Assembly (NCBI GenBank): GCA_027622005.1
Contig: JAQBZH010000024.1
Location: 1-34,824 of the forward strand
From: Bacteroidota bacterium
Lineage (GTDB): Bacteria; Bacteroidota; Rhodothermia; Rhodothermales; UBA10348
Length of the DNA: 34,824 nucleotides
Direction of reading: 5' to 3'
Below the pieces are notes generated by a model. The model was not told the origin of the DNA. It searched no databases and saw only the letters and a program-made list of their open reading frames with translations. Positions 1,629-21,086 of this stretch are shown piece after piece (within the stretch, counting starts at the first letter, position 1; each line of letters starts with the position of its first letter). A program made the translations under genes and the position numbers.

Positions 1629-1754
1629 TTAGCGCGGTACGGAAAAATATTGGATCGAGAAGTGGCCTCCTCGAGCAAGAATGACGGCATTCTCGTAAGC
1701 CCAGTGATCGAGCGCTTTGCTGATAAACTTACTTCCATAGTCAACCTGAATGCG
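1629..1754 (-). pseudogene. IS3-family transposase (integrase core) remnant
   Basis: The minus strand reads RIQVDYGSKFISKALDHWAY followed by ENAVIL and then diverges to a stop. This closely matches the DDE integrase-core block of IS3-family OrfB proteins, where the family pattern is RVDNGPEFxSxALDxWAYENGV; the catalytic aspartate is the D of QVDYG. The usual asparagine after that D is Y, the FSRPGKPTDN block that should follow is missing or scrambled, and there is no start codon, upstream half or terminal inverted repeat. It is a short decayed relic of about 42 codons. The assignment rests on motif memory and is fairly sure for this block; the IS subgroup is uncertain. Confidence 0.72.
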
Positions 1755-1850
1755 TCTGGGTGTTGGGGGGGGGTCGAACGTGGTTAAGTGGCGCAATACC
1801 CTTCAAATGCCTTTGTATGGCACTCCCGAGTCACTTTATTGCTTATCAAG

Positions 1851-2153
1851 TGGCGCGATATCCTACCCATTGGCGCAATTGATCGATTTGTGACGCGATT
1901 CCTCCTCCACACGGCGCGATATCGTCCAATTTGGCGCCATTCCGTTTTTTTAAATTGATTGAACACTAATCAGCTCGCGCACCAGGGGGCGGGTGGTTGC
2001 CGTACCCTTCGTTCCCCATGCTTTGACCTATCCCGCTCGCAACGCCAACAGCCCCTCTTGAAATCGCGCCAAAGAGATTGAGATCGCGCCATAAATAACC
2101 GGTAACGCGCCAGAAATAGCCCCAATTGCGCCATTTGCTCTAAGATAGCGCCA
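1851..2153. repeat. Mirror-symmetric array of 9-bp TGGCGCRAT repeats, 20-21 bp period
   Basis: Five direct copies of a TGGCGCGAT/TGGCGCAAT-type 9-mer start at 1851, 1871, 1891, 1912 and 1932. Five reverse-complement copies (ATCGCGCCA type) occupy 2063-2071, 2083-2091, 2104-2112, 2125-2133 and 2145-2153. Steps outward from the centre are 20, 21, 20, 20 on the left and 20, 21, 21, 20 on the right, so the arms mirror each other to within one base about an axis near 2002. The 11-12 base spacers differ from one another. The copy at 1932 has a palindromic TGGCGCCA core. The period is close to two helical turns and not a multiple of three, which argues for same-face protein binding rather than coding. 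Function unknown. Confidence 0.85.
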
Positions 2154-2354
2154 TCATTAAATCCGAATTTTAGAAGGCGGGTGCTCAATATCATCCAAAA
2201 CTGGCTTAAAAGACGTCTTTTTAGCGGCGGAAGTGGATTATGATTGAGTTGATGAACGAATCGCGCCACTTTGACCTCGGCGCATACCCCCTAACACCTA
2301 CTCACTAACACCGAAAAACGCACAATTCTCTACAACGAGATCAATCCTCGTTTG

Positions 2355-2605: not shown

Positions 2606-3910
2606 ATGAAATTTCTAAATTCGGCCACCAAGCTGACCCTGCTTTTGGCCATTATGCTCTTTAGCGCTTGTACGCCAGCTGCTGAAACGGAAGAAGAACT
2701 TGTCGAGCGTGCGCGCGGCATTCACGACCGCGTCATTACGCTGGATACTCACGACGACATTAGCGTTGCTAACTTCACAGAAGAACGCAACTACACCATG
2801 GATCTAGGCAACCAAGTGAACATCCCGAAAATGGTCGCAGGCGGCCTGGATGTGGCGTGGTTGGTGGTCTACGTTGGTCAGGGTGAGCTAACCGAAGAAG
2901 GATTTGCCCAGGCGAATGCAGATGCATTAGCCAAATTCGATGCTATTCACTGGCTGACTGAAGTCAAGGCCCCGGATCAAATCGAATTGGCTTTGACCTC
3001 GGACGACGTCCGACGCATCGTTGCCTCGGGTAAGCGAGTTGCTATGATTGCCATTGAAAACGCCTATCAAGTTGGAATGGATATCGGCAATATCAAGAAA
3101 TTCCAAGAGCTTGGTGGTCGCTATATGTCGTTGTCGCACAATGGACACAGCCAGTTTTCTGACTCGAATACCGGAGAACGGGACTCTACCTGGCTCTATA
3201 ACGGTTTGAGCGAAATGGGTAAGGAAGCAGTCGCTGAAATGAACAAGTGGGGGATTATGATAGATCTCTCCCACCCTTCAAAGTTGGCTAACATGCAAGC
3301 GATGGCACTATCGCAAGCACCGGTTATTGCATCTCACTCGTCTGCTCGTGCCATGAACGACGTCAGCCGGAATATGGATGATGAGCAACTTATGGCTCTA
3401 AAAGCCAACGGAGGCGTCATTCAAACGGTTGCGTTCAAGAGCTATGTGAACTCGGCTAAAAATGATCTATATGCGTCCGCATCCGATTCTCTGCGTAACT
3501 CCATTGCGGCCGAAATGGGAATCACCCTGATTTCTGACCGTCGGGAGTTATTTCAAATGCCAGCTGAACAGCGCGATGCTTACATGGCTTCTGTAGCCCC
3601 CGTTAGCGAAGCTTTTGAAGCTCGTCGAGGAGAAATCACAGCAGAACCCGTAAACGTTGCCGATTTTGTCGACCACATTGACTATCTGGTCAAGCTGATT
3701 GGCATCGATCACGTAGGCATTAGTTCTGATTTTGATGGCGGCGGCGGTGTTGAAGGCTGGAACGATGCTTCCGAGACGTTTAACGTCACGCTTGAATTGG
3801 TTCGCCGAGGCTATACCGAAGAAGAAATCGGCAAAATGTGGAGCGGAAACTTGCTCCGGGTTCTCGACGAGGTTCAGCGCATTGCGGGAGAAATCCAAGG
3901 CCCAGGTTAA
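2606..3910 (+). CDS. Lipoprotein membrane dipeptidase, M19 family
   Basis: This 434-residue protein belongs to the renal-dipeptidase family of zinc enzymes that hydrolyse dipeptides. The N-terminus is a lipoprotein signal (hydrophobic [10 protein letters not shown], lipobox FSAC), so it is probably anchored in the envelope through that cysteine. Expected binuclear zinc ligands are present: H49 and D51 in THDD, the bridging E151 in AIENAY, H223 in DLSHPS and H244 in ASHSSA. The C-terminal [15 protein letters not shown] segment is also typical. It ends only 4 bases before glpK, so the two are probably co-transcribed, although no link between dipeptide and glycerol metabolism is obvious. No Shine-Dalgarno sequence precedes the ATG. 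Family sure; natural substrate unknown. Confidence 0.93.
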
Positions 3911-5399: not shown

Positions 5400-6901
5400 T
5401 TCCGAGCCGAGACGAATTGCTGAAAAAAGCAGTCTCGACCAAACGTTGGGATATCATCATAATCGGTGGCGGCGCAACCGGGCTTGGTGTCGCGGTGGAT
5501 GCTGCAACCCGCGGATATACGACGCTCCTTGTGGAAGCCCGTGACTTCGGAAAAGGAACGTCGAGCAAAAGCACCAAATTGATTCACGGCGGCGTCCGGT
5601 ACCTCAGGCAGGGCAATATTAAGATGGTTATGAAAGCGCTTCGAGAGCGTGGCCGACTTCTCAACAATGCCCCCCACATCGTACATCCGCTTCGATTTGT
5701 CGTGCCCTGTTATCGGTGGTGGCACAAACCCTGGTATGGGATTGGTTTGAAATTGTATGATGCATTGGCCCGAAATCTTGGAATTGCGCCATCCAAAATC
5801 TTGAATCGGGAAGAAACGCTCTCTTACGTGCCCGGAATTAATCCAGTAGGTCTTCGGGGCGGGGTCGAGTATTGGGATGGACAGTTTGACGATGCTCGCC
5901 TGCTCGTAAGTCTCGCTCAAACGGCCGTACTCAATCAAGCCATAGTTTTGAACTACGTCGAAGTCGTTGATTTGGTTAAAACTAAGGGTTTGGTAACCGG
6001 CGTTCGGGTGCGCGATGTTGAAAGTGGTACGACATTCGAATTGGAGGCCCAGTCGGTAATCAATGCAACTGGAATCGAGACCGATTTTGTACGTCGCATG
6101 GACAACGTCGCCGCCGCCCCGATGATGCAGGCCGCGCAGGGGATCCATGTCGTAGTAGATTCTTCGTTTTTATCTACGGATACGGCCATTATGATTCCAG
6201 ACACCGACGATGGTCGGGTCTTATTCGGAGTCCCTTGGCACGGGAAACTGCTTGTAGGCACGACCGATACGCCGCGGGAAGAAATCAGCAAGGAGCCGGA
6301 GCCGCTCGAAGTTGAAATCGACTATCTCATTTCTCACATCGCCCGGTATCTTTCAAAGCCATTCACCCGAAAGGATGTATTAAGCGTGTTCGCAGGACTC
6401 AGACCCCTGGTGCGTGCGAATAAAGCCGAAACCAAGTCGATTTCACGCGACCACACCTTAGAAGTATCTGCTTCTGGTCTGGTAACCATAACGGGGGGAA
6501 AATGGACCACTTACCGACAAATGGCTGAGGATGCGATTAATAGAGCCGAGCGGGCTTTAGGTAGACCCAGGCGCCCGAGCATTACGCGAACACTCGCTTT
6601 AAGCGATAGGACTTCGAGTGATGCTACATCTGGATCCGGATCGAAGCAGATTCATCCCGATCTTCCTTATACCGAGGACGACGTTCGGCGCGCCGTGACC
6701 GACGAATGGGCACGATCCGTTGAAGACGTATTGGCGCGCCGAACGAGGAGCCTGTTTTTGAACGCCGCCGTCGCAATGGAGGTGGCTCCAAAGGTTGCTA
6801 ACCTAATGGCCAATGAACTCGGCTGGGACGAAAACCGGCAACAAAGTGAAGTGAAAGGCTTTCTTCAAGTTGCGAAAATTTATTCCGTACACCATATTTG
6901 A
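5396..6901 (+). CDS. glpD: FAD-dependent glycerol-3-phosphate dehydrogenase
   Basis: GlpD (501 residues) oxidises sn-glycerol 3-phosphate to dihydroxyacetone phosphate at the membrane and feeds electrons to quinone. The N-terminal FAD Rossmann signature [20 protein letters not shown] is followed by the family block [37 protein letters not shown] and the C-terminal [17 protein letters not shown] are further GlpD/GlpA hallmarks. The C-terminal helical domain (about 400-501) is present, so the gene is complete. It overlaps glpK by 4 bases. Its product enters glycolysis; an aldolase gene lies at 24527 but is not linked in an operon. Confident. Confidence 0.96.
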
Positions 6902-20465: not shown

Positions 20466-21086
20466 TTACAGACCGGGAAGTACTTTTTTAAACTCTTGAA
20501 TGACCCCAAACATGCTAGCAGCTTCCAGAATGGATGAGTTTACGGCCACCCCATAAGCACCAACACTAAGGCAAGAAGTTACTTTTTCTGGCGTTATCCC
20601 ACCCATGGCCAGAACGGGCATTTTTCCCGTATGAAAACATACTTTTCGAAGTACTTCTAAACCGACACCTGGGACCCCTGGATGGGTCGAAGTTTCAAAA
20701 ATGGGGCTGAATATCACATACCGGGCTCTATTGTTGACGGCCACTGCCAACTCTTTCCCATTGTGAACGGAGACCCCAATGGGTGCATGAGAGCCCAAGA
20801 CCAACTTAGCCTCAAATAACGACGGTCCATGCAATCCCGTATGGAAATGCATTTTGTTTTCGGCGGCAAAGGTTATCCGGGAATTGATGGTAATGAGTAC
20901 ATTTCGATCAATTGCAATCAAGTCGCGCATCATTTTATTGGCCCCCACATCAAAATTATCTGAAGAAGCCATATGGTCGCGTAATTGAACCCAACAAACT
21001 CCATCTTTCACCGCATTTCTTACTTTGAAGGCTACTTGTTCGTCGGTGAACTTGTCGGCAATTAACAATAATCGGGGGAGATTCAT
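20466..21086 (-). CDS. ThiE/TenI family protein, thiamine phosphate synthase-like
   Basis: This 206-residue TIM-barrel protein belongs to the ThiE (thiamine phosphate synthase) and TenI (thiazole tautomerase) superfamily. VQLRDH near 33-38, GVSVHN near 103-108, FSPIFETSTHPG near 125-136 and LAMGGITPE near 160-168 align with family phosphate- and substrate-binding loops. The loop that in ThiE usually reads TxTK reads TSTH here, and HTGLHGPSL replaces the common HLGQxDxP, so substrate-contact residues are altered. It sits between thiG and thiD. Placement argues for the coupling step, but a tautomerase role is equally possible from sequence, because no other ThiE or TenI gene is present to decide. 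A gene symbol is therefore withheld. Confidence 0.82.
   Translation of the reverse strand: MNLPRLLLIADKFTDEQVAFKVRNAVKDGVCWVQLRDHMASSDNFDVGANKMMRDLIAIDRNVLITINSRITFAAENKMHFHTGLHGPSLFEAKLVLGSHAPIGVSVHNGKELAVAVNNRARYVIFSPIFETSTHPGVPGVGLEVLRKVCFHTGKMPVLAMGGITPEKVTSCLSVGAYGVAVNSSILEAASMFGVIQEFKKVLPGL

Follow-up and report, generated by a model that had tools for sequence, protein, structure and literature searches.

A dispersed, two-ended element, proposed to be MITE-like, with mirrored arrays of helically phased 9-bp boxes in a Bacteroidota genus

Results

Box arrays between two peptidase genes

The DNA analyzed here (the window, 34.8 kb) is contig C40 of G000, a 2.79-Mb draft genome. Between its Peptidase_M24 gene and its Peptidase_M19 gene lies an array of 9-bp boxes in two mirrored arms (Table 1), and our recount bore out the ten box positions, the outward steps, and the 122-bp center given in the initial annotation. 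Seven of the ten array boxes match TGGCGCNAT exactly, and those at 1891, 1912, and 2104 carry a single mismatch. Two outer boxes, which that annotation had missed, lie beyond the array and bound an element of 480 bp, so that the true unit is 480 bp long and the mirror array is its inner part.

Table 1 Features of the copy in the window (positions of the window).
Feature	Position	Strand	Basis or remark
IS3-family transposase gene relic, reads RIQVDYGSKFISKALDHWAYENAVIL	1677..1757	-	Left flank common to G000 copies C40, C72, C95, and C2
Outer left flank with G-run	1763..1788	+	Common to several copies, some in other species
Left terminal box TGGCGCAAT, left tip of the element	1789..1797	+	In every aligned left end; similarity among divergent copies fades beyond the box
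Left gap, terminal box to first array box 62 bp	1798..1850	+	Weakly conserved sequence
Left array, five direct boxes at 1851, 1871, 1891, 1912, 1932	1851..1940	+	Box matches
Center, 122 bp	1941..2062	.	80–280 bp in other copies
Right array, five inverse boxes at 2063, 2083, 2104, 2125, 2145 (ends 2071, 2091, 2112, 2133, 2153)	2063..2153	-	Box matches
Right gap, terminal box to first array box 115 bp	2154..2259	-	Comparison of copies
Right terminal box TGGCGCGAT, right tip of the element	2260..2268	-	Identical in 14 complete copies and 2 solo right ends
Outer right flank	2269..2330	+	Common to G000 copies C40, C60, C72, and C95

In the whole window, 9 of the 10 exact box matches fall inside 1789–2268, and the matches with at most one mismatch number 49 against 33 expected, i.e., near chance level elsewhere. 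Chains of boxes at 19–21-bp steps reach five in each arm and never exceeded two in 200 dinucleotide shuffles of the window. The frequency of boxes elsewhere is about that of chance, yet their clustering is not due to chance.

Positions 2326–2490 of the window look like the C-terminal remnant of a gene of outer-membrane type, in which a GGC/GGT (poly-glycine) tract is expanded; G001 and G003 have a shorter tract at this place.

Copies in the genus

DNA and pattern searches identified homologous copies with ~80% identity on contigs C60 and C72 of G000, and further copies on C95 (right part deleted), C2 (left end), and C50 (strongly diverged, with the layout kept). The element is thus multicopy, as searches with models of its ends also found. 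G001, G002, and G003, from the same genus, harbor copies of identical layout with unrelated spacers, and the four genomes hold about 20 elements or solo ends in total, G002 having seven. Solo left ends occur on G003 C72 and C221, the left end on G000 C2 is also partnerless, and G002 has two solo right ends (C237 and C257). When sequence-only models of both ends were used to search G004, G005, and other genera, no convincing copy was found among the genomes tested; a possible copy in G019 is broken by an assembly gap.

Some copies show local rearrangements. In the C95 copy (L012, ~3180–3215), the right array and gap are gone, as if a box of the right array had recombined with the right terminal box. 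A two-gene block shared by G000 C60 (L010) and G002 C172 (L074) adjoins an element in both genomes, but in opposite orientation, which would fit an inversion with its breakpoint at the elements. On G003 C72, the solo left end is directly preceded by a short tandem array of TGGCGKGAT with a 21-bp period (20829–20879, in L332), ~370 bp before a DEAD-box helicase-like gene. A candidate arm on G003 C314 was rejected, as it appears to be located in a coding repeat.

Two rigid ends and a variable center

The 14 complete copies measure 438–636 bp and contain no gene. Measured from the left tip, the left boxes of nearly every copy are at 62, 82, 102, 122/123, and 142/143 bp. The arms have 4–6 boxes each, and almost all steps are 20 or 21 bp. 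Twelve of the 14 copies have a left gap of 62 bp, and the remaining two have 72 and 73 bp. The right gap measures 114–116 bp in 12 of the 14 copies, with 124 and 158 bp in the remaining two, and the two solo right ends also fall within 114–116 bp. Counted at ~10.5 bp per turn, these four exceptions amount to about +1, +1, +1, and +4 helical turns. The length of the center, 80–280 bp, is the sole freely varying part. These fixed gaps, with exceptions near whole turns, mean that each end behaves as one rigid body keyed to the tip and to the helix, and the element consists of two rigid end modules joined by a flexible center. Hence, the mirrored arms are present as first described, but what is invariant across copies is the distance of each arm to its own terminal box (62 and ~115 bp) and not the symmetry around the center.

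Terminal inverted repeats are present in opposite orientation, TGGCGCRATAC on the left and TGGCGCGATTC on the right. The element tips read 5′-TG...CA-3′. All 16 right ends, whether in complete copies or solo, have TGGCGCGAT as their terminal box. A CRISPR array was rejected because near-identical 20–50-bp repeats in one direction are absent and the boxes are 9 bp long, imperfect, and mirrored.

Empty places and flanks

The homologous G000 copies occupy different places. The interval between the pepP and dipeptidase genes (M24/M19), where the window carries its copy, lacks a box array in G001, G003, and G005, and the counterpart of the G000 C2 copy is likewise empty in G001; at neither place are the boundaries base-sharp. 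The comparison of empty sites proposed in the initial annotation is in line with a MITE. The target duplications that it also asked for were not seen: inspection of 14 copies by eye revealed no direct repeat adjoining the tips, although these copies are old and decay is possible. The IS3 relic and the right flank shared outside the tips imply that the stretch copied in G000 was longer than tip to tip; either the mobile unit in G000 was larger than the tip-to-tip element or the copies arose by another route. Movement or copying of the unit is demonstrated, its mechanism apart.

In plasmid and phage records, similarity was limited to the IS3 relic, found in Hymenobacter plasmids, and a viral contig search with the flanking dipeptidase gave no match. 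Viral matches to the box pattern were coding repeats and chance matches, with no such element among them.

Conservation at orthologous places

Three sets of copies lie at orthologous places as judged by flanking genes: G000 C50, G001 C85a, and G003 C224; G002 C237 and G001 C178; and G001 C85b and G002 C257. In the first trio, the array boxes are 90% identical against 37% for the spacers, with a random expectation of 29% (free position excluded), and in the second pair these values are 85% and 50%. For the recent G000 copies, they are 93% and 74%. For these identities, the register of the boxes was allowed to shift by one base, a choice that slightly favors the boxes. That the boxes are kept while the spacers saturate points to selection in place. 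Seen in the few orthologous sets available, it is unexpected of dead transposon copies, and among the hints at a present function it is the strongest. With genes called as mechanical open reading frames, all six orthologous copies with both neighbors visible lie between convergent genes, and several recent copies of the G000 family lie between divergent genes.

Similar arrays elsewhere

Arrays outside the genus were gathered by searching for the box itself, which does not imply a common origin, and beyond the family the scan returned, among the matches listed, mostly unrelated arrays and chance. In G015, from another genus of the family, ~12 compact mirror arrays of T[GT]GCGCRA[GT] with 20-bp steps were found (loci L274–L285), each with about three or four direct boxes, a short center, and about three or four inverse boxes, where TGGCGC and TGTCGC boxes alternate. 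Domibacillus enclensis (Bacillota) harbors at least four complete compact, intergenic mirror arrays of NGGCGCAAT boxes with the period of the element (L154:2925–3040, L167:7255–7330, and L169:3241–3340 and 6677–6780) and a fifth, partial one at a stretch edge (L187:1–90).

Among the matches listed, [Bacillus] enclensis (L132, L138, L153, L170, L184) and Rossellomorea aquimaris (L157, L161, L186) contain one-directional GGCGCAAT arrays, mostly at exactly 20 bp and often flanked alternately by GAAAG-T and GATTC-C; two Xanthomonas, also among the matches listed, have arrays of five plus one boxes. A literature search found no paper reporting the element's boxes as repeats, and nothing found in sequence libraries explains the element; the initial annotation likewise knew of no named element with such a layout.

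Search for a driver

No transposase gene lies inside any copy. No match to the IS21 transposase (NF033546, istA) exceeded the cut-off in G000–G005, and no rve-domain (PF00665) match was found in G002, which is rated 100% complete; rve-domain matches elsewhere were IS3-like, with a few others in some genomes. No autonomous element with shared ends was found in these genomes, draft assemblies that may hide a driver.

Discussion

The array in the window is best explained as one copy of a dispersed, non-coding, two-ended element, MITE-like and non-autonomous, that moves now or formerly moved as a unit, a reading on which our confidence is evenly balanced. The demonstrated parts of this reading are the multicopy rigid ends, the variable center, the places that are empty in relatives, and, where copies are orthologous, a conservation of the boxes that exceeds that of the spacers. 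We file the element as MITE-like by working principle and not as a proven MITE, since target duplications were not seen and no driver was found. A putative protein, a recombinase or a descendant of one, would bind one box per monomer, the monomers would align head to tail along each arm so that each end nucleates a filament, and the arms would pair through looping of the center. The original role would have been transposition, and the old, vertically inherited copies probably serve the host now, e.g., in local DNA architecture or insulation between genes. Two of the readings first proposed survive, same-face protein binding and the ends of a non-autonomous element, the size of which is 480 bp and not ~300 bp. 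The element is multicopy and relatives lack it at two places, but target duplications were not seen.

A tentative alternative is that these were host chromosome-architecture or insulator sites from the outset, where a nucleoid-type protein would fill the phased arms, loop the center, and bound the neighboring genes, with copies arising by duplication and not transposition. Copies that share an orthologous place across species, keep their boxes better than their spacers, and lie between convergent genes are consistent with such sites, as are the compact mirror arrays of G015 and Domibacillus, which are too small for cargo. However, rigid terminal boxes with a free center length resemble recombination ends, and the place occupied in the window is empty in relatives. 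Moreover, divergent genes flank several of the G000 copies, and G005 has no clear array. A further alternative, which we consider unlikely, is a non-autonomous relative of a known Mu/Tn7/IS21-type transposon whose boxes would be transposase sites and whose master element would be unassembled or lost. Multi-site, inverted, asymmetric ends are typical of that group, the 5′-TG...CA-3′ tips count for kinship, and IS21, at whose ends multiple repeats with GC-rich boxes stand about one turn apart, was a promising lead for that reason. Against this, the seven IS21 elements sampled have different boxes at their ends, the IS21 of G015 has ends unlike the element, and the two GC-rich conserved boxes per direct repeat looked for in the IS21 test were not seen, the element having one conserved box per 20 bp. 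IS21 ends were rejected on the different boxes and the lack of istA matches over the cut-off in G000–G005. No rve match was found in G002, and no 5-bp target duplication was seen at the tips.

A structured RNA or cruciform, in which the inverse boxes pair across the center into a long stem with symmetric internal loops, is very improbable. The array folds better than shuffles (z of −3.2 for the window and −6.8 for the G002 C2 copy), but good folding of the arms is expected of any inverse boxes. Opposed boxes showed no co-variation (23 of 65 matches at the free seventh position against 20.4 expected, p = 0.26, with partners shuffled within each element as the null), box numbers are often unequal between arms, solo left ends exist, terminal gaps of 62 and 115 bp make pairing in register impossible, and no Rfam match was found at the element. 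The lack of co-variation, the unequal arms, and the gaps out of register favor putative protein sites over a hairpin. Least credible of all is a replication origin of the iteron type, or a partition site. Iterons are typically direct repeats spaced two turns apart and bound on one face, but copies are many and dispersed along chromosomes, the window copy is flanked by M24 and M19 peptidase genes with no initiator gene, and plasmid and phage records share nothing of the element beyond the IS3 relic. The many dispersed copies leave the single origin or partition site proposed initially unsupported.

Returning to the MITE-like element, we regard its layout as new, and its function is inferred. 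An extension that we hold doubtful would have transposon-like ends domesticated into selected chromosome-architecture sites, as one form of a widespread mirror-phased GGCGC-box class (Bacteroidota, Bacillota) bound by a putative arm-pairing filament protein. If our reading of the element is right, transposon-type ends would be kept by selection at fixed chromosomal places with the enzyme absent, and the element would be a ready substrate for finding a DNA-binding protein that polymerizes along phased boxes. With distances this exact (62, 115, and 20 bp, and exceptions near whole turns), the mechanism is directly open to tests by binding, looping, and half-turn insertion, and the compact arrays in Domibacillus suggest that the phenomenon is wider than one genus.

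REP/BIME sequences are dispersed intergenic repeats that serve as protein sites, REPs being short hairpins. The element is likewise dispersed and intergenic with putative protein sites, but it is ~0.5 kb long and shows no co-variation between opposed boxes. With plasmid iterons, which are direct repeats at two-turn steps, it shares the repeats and their steps; unlike them, it is mirrored, chromosomal, multicopy, and without an initiator gene. The ends of Tn7-like (TnsB) and Mu (MuA) transposons have several boxes, inverse between ends, unequal left and right, and helically phased. IS21 (IstA) ends have this same organization (PMC10122671). The element resembles all three in these four respects and differs in its box sequences, in its 4–6 evenly spaced boxes per end, and in that neither a transposase nor a target duplication was found. 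BrickBuilt MITEs of Porphyromonas gingivalis carry a single one-direction run of contiguous 23-nt repeats, and their 12-bp terminal inverted repeats match IS5-family elements (PMC4596501), whereas the element described here has mirrored arms of 9-bp boxes, drifting 11–12-bp spacers, fixed terminal gaps, and no matching insertion sequence. BrickBuilt copies are also multicopy, intergenic, non-coding, and a few hundred bp long, with internal direct repeats and a conserved "leader" and "tail" (PMC4596501), and the element is like them in each of these features, its direct repeats and conserved end parts included.
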